Under the pieces are notes generated by a model, which did not search any database, was not told the DNA's origin, and saw nothing but the letters and a program-made list of their open reading frames with translations. From contig NZ_SNUG01000003.1 in assembly GCF_012027325.1 (NCBI RefSeq), forward strand, positions 1 to 64,000: DNA of 64,000 nt, in the 5' to 3' direction. Each line of letters starts with the position of its first letter. Positions within the stretch are counted from its first letter, which is position 1. The translations under genes were made by a program, and so were the position numbers. Positions 13,742 to 50,452 of this stretch are shown piece by piece. This DNA is from Thermococcus sp. M39 (GTDB lineage Archaea; Methanobacteriota_B; Thermococci; Thermococcales; Thermococcaceae).

Positions 13742-15874
13742 TCACCCCTTAACGATCTCAATTTGTGGTATTGGATTTGGCAACTTCTTCATGATCTCGC
13801 AAGCCTCTTTCTCGCTGATCTTTGTTACTCTACATGCACAGGCCTTTGTCTCTGGTATCTTTGCTACTGGATCGAGAGCGTCGTTTGTGAGAACGTTTGC
13901 TCCCCAGTGCCATGGAACTGCAATAACGCCCTTCTTAACAGCTCTCGTAACTCTTGCCTTAATAGCGTAAACACCTCTCCTTGTTTCAATCTTAATCCAG
14001 TCGCCAGTCTTTATGCCGAGCTTAGCTGCATCATCTGGGTGAATCTCTGCTAGTGGCTCAGGCCATCTCTTCACTAAGGCCTCGCTTCTACCAGTCATGG
14101 TTATCGTGTGGTAGTGTCCAACGTATCTCATTGTTGTGAGTATGAATGGATACTCCTCATCTGGGAGCTCAACTGGTCCTCTGTAGTCAACTGCTGCTAA
14201 GTGGGCTTTTCCATCTGGGGTCAAGAATCTCTCCTTGTAGAGAACTCTTGTTCCGGGGTGATCTTCACTTGGGCATGGCCAGTGAATTCCAGCCAAGTTA
14301 GCCTTAAGTCTCTCTGGGGTGATTCCTCTGTATTGCGGTGTACAGGCATTGATCTCTCTCAAAACGTCAGCAGCCTCGTTGTATCTGAATCCTTTTGAGC
14401 CATCTCTGTCAAATCCAACTGCCTTACCAACCTCACTCAAAATCCACCAGTCTGGTCTTGCCTCTCCAGGTGGCTTAACTGCTGCAAAGCTCCACTGTAC
14501 TCTTCTCTCTGTGTTTGTGAGAGAACCTTCGTTCTCAAGCAGTGCAGCTGCTGGAAGAACTATGTCAGCGAACTCCAGTGTTGGCGTTGGCACGATATCT
14601 TGAACGACCATGAACTCAAGCTTTTGAAGAGCTTTGATTACGTGGTTTGCGTTTGCATCACTGATAACTGGGTTCTCACCCATAACGTAGTATGCTTTGA
14701 CCTTTCCTTTGTCAATAGCATGAGCTGCCTCAATGACTGTAAGACCAACTTCTCCGCTCAGCTCAACTCCCCAGAACTCCTCGAAGAATTTCCTCTTCTC
14801 TGGGTCGGTAACTGCCTGGTAACCTGGGAACACGTTTGGCAAAGCAGCCATATCACATGCTCCTTGAACGTTGTTCTGTCCTCTCATTGGTGCACAACCA
14901 CAGCCTTCTCTTCCCTGGTATCCACAGATTGCTGAAAGTGTTCCTAAGAGCCTAACGTTATCGTGACCGTGAGTGTGCTGTGTTAGACCCATAGCCCATG
15001 TAATAACTCCCTTTCCAGCTGTGGCAAAGGTTCTTGCAGCCTCAACTATAAGCTCAGCTGGGACACCAGTTATCTTCTCAACGTATTCTGGTGTGAACTT
15101 TTCAACGGCCTTAACGACTTCATCGAAACCAACACACCTCTCTCTTACGAACTTTGCGTCATAGAGCTTCTCTTTGATTATGACGTGAATGAGACCATTT
15201 ATCAATGCAATATCAGTTCCTGGGTAGTGCTGCAAGAAGATGTCTGCAAACCAAGCTGTTCTCGTAAATCTTGGATCTGCAACAATAACCTTTGCTCCTC
15301 TCTCCTTAGCCTTGAGAACGTATCTAAATCCAACTGGGTGGGTCTCTGCATAGTTGTGACCAATGATAAAGATGACATCCGCCTCTTCGATGTCCTTGTA
15401 AGTGTTGGTCATTGCACCTGCTCCAAATACTTGCTTCAATCCAGAAACAGTTGGAGCGTGGCACAAACGAGCACAGTGATCAACGTTGTTTGTGCCAAGC
15501 ATTCTTGCAAGCTTTTGGATGAGATAGTTTGGCTCGTTAAATGTTCTTGCAGAACCAAAGAACATTAATTGATTTGGATCATCTTTTGCATATGCCTTCA
15601 ATCTCTCAGCGACTTCTTTAATTGCTTCACTCCAGCTAATCTCAACGAATTTTCCTTGCTCCTTAGCCTTTAATGGCTTCTTTAATCTGTCCTTTGCTAA
15701 AATGTACTCAAGAACAGCGTTTCCCTTTGGACAAAGCTTACCATTTTCGTTTGAAATGCCCTCCAAGTCCTCTGCATACTCAATGTTTACTGGATATCCA
15801 TCCACTGCCCTTATGTATAACCTACATCCGACCCCACAGTAGGGACACACCACAGGTATTAATTTCTCCGCCAA
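13742..15874 (-). CDS. fdhA: Formate dehydrogenase catalytic subunit (Mo/W-bis-MGD)
   Basis: Oxidises formate to CO2 with a molybdenum or tungsten pterin cofactor; 710 residues. The N-terminal [4Fe-4S] ligands are Cys10, Cys13, Cys17 and Cys48, with Lys50 behind them. ARLCHAPT places the metal ligand at Cys138 followed by His139: this is a cysteine (TGC), not selenocysteine, enzyme. The C-terminal molydopterin-binding domain shows GVIAVPWHWGANVLTNDALDP in part. I start at TTG 15874 because AGGAGGTG ends seven bases upstream; the GTG at 15883 lies inside that ribosome binding site. No twin-arginine signal, so cytoplasmic. First gene of the hydrogenlyase operon. Confidence 0.95.
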   Translation of the reverse strand: MAEKLIPVVCPYCGVGCRLYIRAVDGYPVNIEYAEDLEGISNENGKLCPKGNAVLEYILAKDRLKKPLKAKEQGKFVEISWSEAIKEVAERLKAYAKDDPNQLMFFGSARTFNEPNYLIQKLARMLGTNNVDHCARLCHAPTVSGLKQVFGAGAMTNTYKDIEEADVIFIIGHNYAETHPVGFRYVLKAKERGAKVIVADPRFTRTAWFADIFLQHYPGTDIALINGLIHVIIKEKLYDAKFVRERCVGFDEVVKAVEKFTPEYVEKITGVPAELIVEAARTFATAGKGVITWAMGLTQHTHGHDNVRLLGTLSAICGYQGREGCGCAPMRGQNNVQGACDMAALPNVFPGYQAVTDPEKRKFFEEFWGVELSGEVGLTVIEAAHAIDKGKVKAYYVMGENPVISDANANHVIKALQKLEFMVVQDIVPTPTLEFADIVLPAAALLENEGSLTNTERRVQWSFAAVKPPGEARPDWWILSEVGKAVGFDRDGSKGFRYNEAADVLREINACTPQYRGITPERLKANLAGIHWPCPSEDHPGTRVLYKERFLTPDGKAHLAAVDYRGPVELPDEEYPFILTTMRYVGHYHTITMTGRSEALVKRWPEPLAEIHPDDAAKLGIKTGDWIKIETRRGVYAIKARVTRAVKKGVIAVPWHWGANVLTNDALDPVAKIPETKACACRVTKISEKEACEIMKKLPNPIPQIEIVKG

Positions 15875-16159
15875 GCGGAACACCTCCTAAGTTAGTGTAC
15901 AGACATGTTCTTCAATGTACTGATATATTTTAGTGCCCATATCTGCTTCAACATTTTGTTAAACGCTTTCCTTTAAAACTCTTTTTTTATAGCTTAGTTC
16001 TTAACAAAAGGTTATAATGATTGAGATATAGCAAAATAAAGCCACGAAAGTTCTTTTTTTAAATTGTTTTGTATACACTATTCTGTAAGATTTAAACAAA
16101 TACGCTTACAAATAGAATTGTTTAAATTGTTTATCAACGTTAAATACAGTAGAAAAATG
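15875..16159 (-). promoter_or_regulatory. fdhA promoter region with SurR-like site
   Basis: No gene is seen here. Read towards fdhA, positions 16041-15974 form a block repeated upstream of the Lrp-like regulator at 49.9 kb. Inside it, plus-strand 15997-16013 reads GTTcttAACaaaagGTT, a perfect fit to the published SurR consensus GTTn3AACn5GTT. Two candidate TATA boxes follow: CTATAAAAAA (about 15992-15983) and GTTTTAAAGG (about 15979-15970). The leader before the start codon has a repeated TGTAC core of unknown meaning. The left-over 16050-16159 is AT-rich with repeated AATTGTTTAAATTG-like runs after fdhD. Confidence 0.7.
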
Positions 16160-20940: not shown

Positions 20941-21276
20941 TATCCCTCCATCTCTGAATTTCTCTTCATAAAATGTTATGAGAACTTAGAATAAAAGGAT
21001 TTTCTGAACCAAAAGTTTAGAACGTAAAAGTTTCGGATCAAAATGGCATCATCGGAAGGGAAAACGGTAAATAAAATGATAGAACGTTTAAGTATTTCAA
21101 AGGATTTCCTATGGTTTATTTGCAATTTTGAGCGCACTTTTGCAGTTTTCAAAAAGTTGCTCACTAATGCTAAACCCCAACATTCACTCAAAATGCAAAG
21201 CTTTATAAAGGCACAGACCAAGTAATGGTGACGTTCTTCTGAAGGGCGTTGAAATATTTGAAAGGAGATATTGGAA
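20941..21276. promoter_or_regulatory. Divergent promoter region frhA / TRAM protein
   Basis: A 336-base gap without a convincing gene. For frhA (minus strand) a TATA-like CCTTTTATTCT lies near 20989-20999, directly preceded by plus-strand 21001-21017 TTTctgAACcaaaaGTT, which fits the SurR consensus GTTn3AACn5GTT at all but one base. For the TRAM gene (plus strand) GCTTTATAAAGG near 21200-21211 is a good TATA box, giving a leader of about 45 bases. A 60-codon open frame at 21043-21225 lacks a ribosome binding site and looks like chance. Confidence 0.6.
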
Positions 21277-41202: not shown

Positions 41203-41241
41203 GTTGTTAACCTTTGGTTAACAATACTTTTATAAATACTT
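41203..41241 (+). promoter_or_regulatory. nfn (sud) promoter with perfect SurR consensus
   Basis: 41203-41219 reads GTTgttAACctttgGTT, a perfect match to GTTn3AACn5GTT, the binding sequence of SurR, the redox-sensing regulator of sulfur/hydrogen metabolism. It is followed after seven bases by TATA box CTTTTATAAATAC (about 41227-41239). A site upstream of TATA is where SurR activates hydrogenase genes in Pyrococcus. The inner GTTAACCTTTGGTTAAC is itself a 17-base inverted repeat. Confidence 0.75.
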
Positions 41242-49752: not shown

Positions 49753-49830
49753 CTTACTGGGACTTAGAAAGGTTAACAAAACTATTTACAAACGTAAGTA
49801 TTTACTTGCATAGTTCAAGGCATACAAATC

Positions 49831-49926
49831 AATTTACAAAAAAGGAATTATAGGACTTTATTTTGCGATATTTCAAATATCTCAACCTTTTGTTAAAAAC
49901 TAAGCTATAGGAAAAGAGTTTTATAC
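49831..49926 (+). promoter_or_regulatory. Regulator promoter sharing a module with fdhA
   Basis: 49856-49923 matches the fdhA promoter block (16041-15974 on the minus strand) at 58 of 68 bases without gaps, by hand alignment; weaker likeness extends about 30 bases further upstream. Inside, 49884-49900 reads AACcttttGTTaaaAAC, the reverse of a perfect SurR consensus, in the same orientation to transcription as at fdhA. TATA candidate GTTTTATAC (49918-49926) follows. Positions 49753-49830 show nothing I can name. Confidence 0.75.
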
Positions 49927-49981
49927 AAAAACTCCTGGGATAATGTGAAGATTATGACTTGACAAATGGGAGGTGAAAATG

Positions 49982-50452
49982 ATGGGAGAGAATGTGAAGC
50001 TTACATCAAAGCAAATTGAGCTTTTAAGAAAGTTATATAATGAAGGAAAGCCTATTGAGGTCCATACTGTTGAAAAAAGCCAAGAAGAACTTGCAAGAGA
50101 ACTCAAAGTTACGAGACAGGCATTGAGCTTTCACCTGAAGACCTTAAAAGAGATTGGATATATAAGAACAGGGAGAGGGTTCATAGATTTGACCAGAAAA
50201 GCAGTCGAGTTTCTTGAGAACGGCAAAAACAACAAAGCTTTTATCTTTGTAAAAATAGACCCAACAAAAAGAAAAGAAGTCTATGAGGAGATAAAGGAGC
50301 TTAACGGAATAAGGGCATATAGGGTTACTGGAAACATAGACATAGTGATTGAAGTTGACAGGACAAGATTTGAGGAAATTCTCGATAAGGTATCCTCGAT
50401 TGATGGAGTCAGAGAGACAATAACCCACTTTATAATTGAACCAATTGCCTAA
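49982..50452 (+). CDS. Lrp/AsnC-like transcriptional regulator
   Basis: A 156-residue regulator with an N-terminal winged helix (SQEELARELKVTRQALSFHLKTLKEIGYIRTGRGFIDLT, about residues 33-72) and a C-terminal RAM effector domain (AFIFVKIDPTKRKEVYEEIKEL... ITHFIIEPIA). GGGAGGTG lies six bases before ATG 49982 (ATG 49979 is the alternative). Its promoter module is shared with the fdhA operon, so it probably belongs to the same regulon and may bind both. Ends tail-to-tail with the THUMP gene, stops sharing CTAA. Confidence 0.88.
   Translation: MGENVKLTSKQIELLRKLYNEGKPIEVHTVEKSQEELARELKVTRQALSFHLKTLKEIGYIRTGRGFIDLTRKAVEFLENGKNNKAFIFVKIDPTKRKEVYEEIKELNGIRAYRVTGNIDIVIEVDRTRFEEILDKVSSIDGVRETITHFIIEPIA

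Follow-up and report, generated by a model that had tools for sequence, protein, structure and literature searches.

Sites for SurR have already been described at hydrogenase and formate operons (fhl, frh and mbh; PMC10025317, section 8.2). The long form of the SurR motif is GTTn3AACn5GTT (PMC12162507), which reads AACn5GTTn3AAC as its reverse complement, and SurR sited upstream of the BRE/TATA elements leads to activation when sulfur is absent (PMC12162507, PMC10025317). Beyond SurR, little is known of fhl regulation, and PMC10025317 presents this as an open question for Thermococci. Hints on formate regulation of fhl are conflicting in T. paralvinellae: formate-dependent expression of fhl is cited in PMC10025317, whereas enzyme activities gave no sign of independent formate regulation (PMC11959275).

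We analysed a stretch of 64,000 nucleotides from Thermococcus sp. M39 (contig NZ_SNUG01000003.1, positions 1 to 64,000), called the window below. It has the Group 1A frh-fhl-mbh arrangement of Holden and Sistu 2023 (PMC10025317). In the SurR-dependent fhl, frh and mbh promoters of Group 1 Thermococci reported there, GTTn3AACn5GTT lies just upstream of BRE/TATA, and this arrangement is found here at frh (21007), at fhl (15997), and also at a gene for an Lrp-like regulator (49884). Neither this regulator gene nor a duplication of the promoter is mentioned in the available part of that article. In the literature open to search, we found no paper on the regulator, on its belonging to this promoter family or on its origin by promoter duplication.

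Results

Two copies of one promoter in the window

Re-alignment from the raw sequence of 49856-49923 (plus strand) with 16041-15974 (minus strand) gave 58 identical positions over 68, ungapped, which is the figure that the initial annotation had given. It had also mentioned a weaker likeness further upstream, a separation of 34 kb and a perfect SurR consensus in each copy, and these points were confirmed: a gapped local alignment of the regulator and fdhA promoters extends from ~49774 to ~49950 with a score of 151, the two copies are 33.8 kb apart, and AACn5GTTn3AAC is present at 49884-49900 and 15997-16013. The maximum score among 2000 Markov-simulated pairs of the same composition and dinucleotide make-up was 62. 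The best further match to the module in its own genome has an E value of ~0.1, meaning that the module is present exactly twice there. Coordinates are reported in Table 1. The letters of the SurR motif are unchanged in all seven aligned module copies, and AAAAnnGTTTTA is almost invariant among fdhA promoters. Two elements are absent from fdhA promoters, the palindrome described below and ATATTTCAAATAT, a perfect inverted repeat in the three regulator promoters.

Table 1. Features of the two promoters and their genes, and other long SurR motifs (positions in the window).
Feature	Position	Strand	Basis or remark
fdhA, formate dehydrogenase alpha, first fhl operon gene past the promoter	13742..15874	-	TIGR01591, sequence reading
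TATA-like TTTTAAAG of the fhl operon promoter	15971..15978	-	sequence reading
Module copy at fdhA (fhl operon)	15988..16041	-	flank 16041-16031, SurR motif 16013-15997 (upstream of fdhA), flank 15997-15988
Long SurR motif, frhA-like gene	21007..21023	-	upstream of its gene
Long SurR motif GTTGTTAACCTTTGGTT, sulfide/dihydroorotate dehydrogenase-like gene	41203..41219	+	upstream of its gene
Upstream part of the putatively duplicated promoter	49774..49855	+	local alignment, 7-copy alignment, coordinates
Palindrome GTAAGTATTTACTTGC (GCAAGTATTTACTTGC in G004)	49794..49809	.	regulator promoters only; hypothetical, candidate operator
TACAAAtCAATTTAcAAAAAAG in the regulator promoter	49823..49844		matches TACAAAaCAATTTAaAAAAAAG of fdhA at 16073-16053
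Conserved flank CTTTATTTTGC	49856..49866	+	alignments; matches 16041-16031 at fdhA
ATATTTCAAATAT inverted repeat	49868..49880	.	sequence comparison
Long SurR motif AACCTTTTGTTAAAAAC (GTTn3AACn5GTT), regulator	49884..49900	-	upstream of the gene, just upstream of BRE/TATA
Conserved flank CTAAGCTATA	49900..49909	+	alignments; matches 15997-15988 at fdhA
BRE/TATA-like element GGAAAAGAG-TTTTATAC	49910..49926	+	sequence reading
Shine-Dalgarno GGAGGTG of the regulator gene	49969..49975		
Lrp-like regulator gene (wHTH + RAM domain)	49979..50452	+	Pfam, structure model, PDB matches

The likeness is also present in related genomes. Over the 68 bases, the regulator promoter of the window's genome (G000) is 94% identical to its copy in G002 and 93% to that in G004, and the fdhA-promoter copies of G001, G002 and G004 stand at 84-85%. 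The module is thus found at both promoters in two more regulator-bearing species, and at fdhA in a fourth. The G001 regulator promoter is off its contig, and comparisons of regulator promoters are those of G000, G002 and G004. Among these three, 62 of 68 columns of the module are invariant, as are 74 of 84 in the block above it (49772-49855), compared to 32 of 52 in the stretch from queC to this block. At four-fold degenerate sites of the regulator gene, pairwise identity falls to 57-64%. Such a largely invariant promoter next to diverged four-fold sites means that the promoter has been held by selection since the species split.

The identity of fdhA is supported by TIGR01591 (814 bits, for a cut-off of 666), and the gene is directly downstream of fdhD and frhA/frhB-like genes. 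Its mechanically assigned GTG start (15883) falls within the Shine-Dalgarno GGAGGTG (15887-15881; stretch 15871-15887, minus strand), so that the TTG at 15874, placed behind this sequence, is the more probable start. In two other genomes, a gene for a YaaH-like transporter stands between the fhl promoter and fdhA (L208, G090:C28:3793-4412; L209, G098:C143:1335-2007). The module matches of G090 and G098 were therefore rejected as marking a new gene, the YaaH-like gene being there the leader of the fhl operon.

The module belongs to the fhl promoter

A sequence-only profile, R1, was built from 16 fdhA promoters and none of the regulator copies, and run over 94 Thermococcaceae genomes. Regulator promoters scored 67.8 (G000), 70.7 (G002) and 65.6 bits (G004), with E values of ~1e-17 to 1e-19. 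All matches above 60 bits were fhl operon promoters or regulator promoters, and the next match scored 36 bits, which leaves the regulator as the sole non-fhl gene with a strong match in these genomes. The regulator copies group together (99/99) in a tree of the promoters, as sister to the fdhA promoters of the same genus (97/98). This placement indicates that the promoter of the regulator is a duplicate of that of fhl, a case of "promoter capture", and the simplest account of the alignments is a duplication of the fhl promoter in front of the regulator within the genus. The initial proposal of a dedicated member of the fhl regulon agrees with both the profile and the tree. As far as sequence comparison goes, common descent of the two promoters, their conservation and the exclusiveness of the module are established.

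The flanks CTTTATTTTGC and CTAAGC call for a more divided judgement. They had been pointed out as conserved in both copies, which is correct, but they are not a mark of the regulator, being kept at fdhA in ~15 regulator-free species. The fdhA promoters of such species display the TATACAAA block, CTTTATTT, the SurR motif, YAAGC, an A-tract and GTTTTAA, from which it follows that the flanks are a property of the fhl promoter itself and not of the regulator. They were consequently rejected as a specific mark of a binding site of the regulator. The combination of CTAAGC with a SurR site is seen again upstream of glutamate dehydrogenase genes, and the variants CAAAGC and CGAAGC precede mbh/mrp-type operons. 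In another Thermococcaceae genus, gdh promoters carry AACTTTTTGTTGnAAACTAAGC (L150, L152, L059, L163, L166 and L168; site at 1501), a SurR motif with an fdhA-like CTAAGC flank, suggesting an extended SurR-type site.

SurR motifs and expected activation

The window contains 4 long SurR motifs, for 0.45 expected. At the frhA-like hydrogenase operon promoter, the motif is placed as published for Group 1 Thermococci. The motif GTTGTTAACCTTTGGTT is upstream of a TATA-like CTTTTATAAATA and ~55 bases before the sulfide/dihydroorotate dehydrogenase-like gene, whose product is of the FAD/NAD-binding type (PRK06222, 331 bits). At the regulator, the motif ends ~10 bases ahead of a BRE-like purine run, and in both module copies it occupies the activating position, upstream of BRE/TATA. 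SurR itself is encoded beside pdo in the same genome (G000:C5; match to PF0095, E 3.8e-94). Membership of the regulator in the SurR/fhl regulon is well supported. Given the activating geometry at both copies and the published SurR rule, co-activation of fhl and the regulator would be the best-supported function of the module; since the regulator carries a copy of the fhl promoter, its expression probably starts along with that of the fhl operon.

The regulator protein, its paralogue and a candidate operator

The regulator, 156-158 amino acids long, combines a winged HTH with a RAM domain (AsnC_trans_reg PF01037, 31.7 bits, cut-off 25). The HTH matches HTH_5 (ArsR) with 25.4 bits (cut-off 22), and HTH_24 is likewise barely above its cut-off; NCBIfam LysM reaches 32 bits for a cut-off of 180. 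The best PDB fold matches of a structure model are the Lrp/AsnC proteins PH0140 and PH1519 (E 9e-8), with a whole-chain TM of only 0.42, a pTM of 0.49 and an uncertain domain orientation. The RAM part of the model superposes at ~2 A on stand-alone RAM proteins.

Almost all of the Thermococcaceae genomes examined encode a paralogue ~65% identical to the regulator. In G000 it adjoins an engB-like GTPase gene (G000:C7:78374-78835) and has the same domain order as the regulator. A search of its upstream region revealed no long SurR motif and no fhl-like promoter. The recognition helix reads SFH in the regulator and SNH in the paralogue, an N to F change at one position that may confer a new specificity. 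A recent duplication of the paralogue within the genus was considered and rejected, as in the protein tree the clade of the regulator branches outside every Thermococcaceae paralogue (77/69, weakly rooted), meaning that the regulator is old or fast-evolving. In G004 the paralogue is frameshifted (L079, G004:C1:1871495-1871958), with the fhl-promoter regulator intact; this could be a real loss or a sequencing error.

The palindrome GYAAGTATTTACTTGC is found ~75 bases above the SurR site, in regulator promoters only. The pattern AAGTAnnTACTT has a single match in the window, for 0.08 expected. When the genus was searched, other sites with at most one mismatch in regulator-bearing genomes were inside apparent genes, and no further convincing site was found. 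Sites with two mismatches were no commoner than those of a reversed-pattern control, which corresponds to background, and were equally present in regulator-free genomes. A role of GYAAGTATTTACTTGC as a regulon-wide operator was rejected on these grounds, and the palindrome is retained as a candidate autoregulatory operator. A comparison of fdhA promoters brought out no motif common to regulator-bearing species, and confined to them, that could serve as a binding site of the regulator.

Distribution of the regulator

The regulator was found in 4 of the 94 Thermococcaceae genomes (G000, G001, G002 and G004), all of the window's genus. All four have an fhl-type fdhA, counted at 79% identity or more, as do ~15 regulator-free species of other genera. 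Possession of fhl is also reported for T. barophilus CH5 (PMC10025317). Congeners G003, G005 (only ~80% complete) and G006 have neither the regulator nor the fhl fdhA, so that regulator and fhl are jointly present or absent in 7 of 7 genomes of the genus. Within the genus, this joint pattern represents a single evolutionary event rather than four.

The regulator gene lies between queC and a THUMP-like gene (names read from translations, with ThiI/Trm14 matches). In G003, G005 and G006, queC directly abuts the THUMP-like gene, and in the G011/G015 genus the THUMP-like gene closely follows queC, with no regulator between them. The queC product ends with KIEIA* in L213, L214 and L215, around 2217-2230 (G003, G006 and G005). 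The queC tail of these three genomes (AAAATTGAAATTGCTTAAAGC) resembles the 3' end of the regulator gene (ATAATTGAACCAATTGCCTAAAGC), which would be consistent with the regulator having been deleted in this clade along with the loss of fhl; the stretch being short, this is suggestive only.

Discussion

We consider it likely that an Lrp-like regulator has captured a copy of the fhl promoter, that this copy was kept by selection and is activated by SurR jointly with fhl, and that the regulator may in turn act on its own promoter and perhaps on fhl. A copy of ~150-170 bases, from ~49774 to the TATA box, would have been placed before a lineage-specific regulator gene in the ancestor of the G000, G001, G002 and G004 group. 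In the absence of sulfur, reduced SurR on AACn5GTTn3AAC upstream of BRE/TATA would activate both genes, as expected from published SurR work. The regulator, with its DNA-binding part and small-ligand RAM domain, may then respond to a metabolite by tuning the promoter from which it is transcribed and, perhaps, fhl or further genes. In this scheme, SurR acting on the regulator would form one branch of a circuit of the feed-forward or feedback type.

What the regulator acts upon is the point on which readings diverge. It may be a co-expressed bystander, sharing the SurR timing and having targets elsewhere than fhl, for instance redox or amino-acid genes during hydrogen-producing growth, a reading whose chances we place slightly below even. 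It fits the ~15 species whose fhl operons work without the regulator, the SFH helix compared to SNH in the paralogue, and the lack of a common operator in fdhA promoters. It is however at odds with the joint presence or absence of regulator and fhl throughout the genus, and with their proximity, ~28-34 kb, in G000 and G004.

We hold it possible, but rather doubtful, that the regulator is the missing metabolite-responsive controller of fhl, answering to formate, CO2/H2 or an amino-acid derived compound in a feed-forward loop set up by the duplicated promoter, in which SurR would turn on both fhl and the regulator and the latter would tune fhl as well as itself. The ~15 species having the same fhl promoter and no regulator imply that the operon does not need it, and that it is not a general requirement. 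A controller of fhl acting directly through the shared flanks, at its own promoter included, is improbable. Flanks beyond the SurR motif are indeed common to both promoters, and Lrp-like proteins often autoregulate (PMC2995911), but the flanks are conserved at fdhA in regulator-free species and CTAAGC accompanies SurR motifs at gdh promoters. This reading would require the paralogue found throughout the family to bind the same site.

Concerning the origin of the likeness, two unrelated promoters might have convergently come to carry the same SurR sites and those of another factor, as sites for DNA-binding proteins arise time and again and those of SurR are common across the family (PMC12162507, PMC10025317). 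Since the likeness is colinear over ~170 bases, spacers included, and regulator promoters are sister to the fdhA promoters of their own genus, we give this very little credence. That two A+T-rich archaeal promoters, a composition that both regions do have, resemble each other by chance is already refuted by the score of 151 against its null and by the persistence of the likeness in related genomes.

The question of fhl regulation receives a single named gene, driven by what appears to be a duplicate of the fhl promoter, and the locus clearly exemplifies how an archaeal transcription factor can enter a regulon, namely through a copy of the regulon's promoter.

Compared to known systems, the regulator resembles the archaeal Lrp/AsnC proteins FL11/PH1519, PH0140 and LrpA in pairing a winged HTH with a RAM domain (PMC2995911). 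It differs from the characterised members by a weak sequence likeness (best PDB E 2.7e-4) and by an HTH that scores equally with ArsR/MarR models. Another Thermococcales regulator, Tar (TK0271) of T. kodakarensis, has as its target TGGACA-N8-TGTCCA at operons for aromatic amino acids (PMC6737238). The likeness with Tar is one of arrangement, as Tar is an operon-linked activator expressed from a promoter belonging to the regulon that it controls (PMC6737238).
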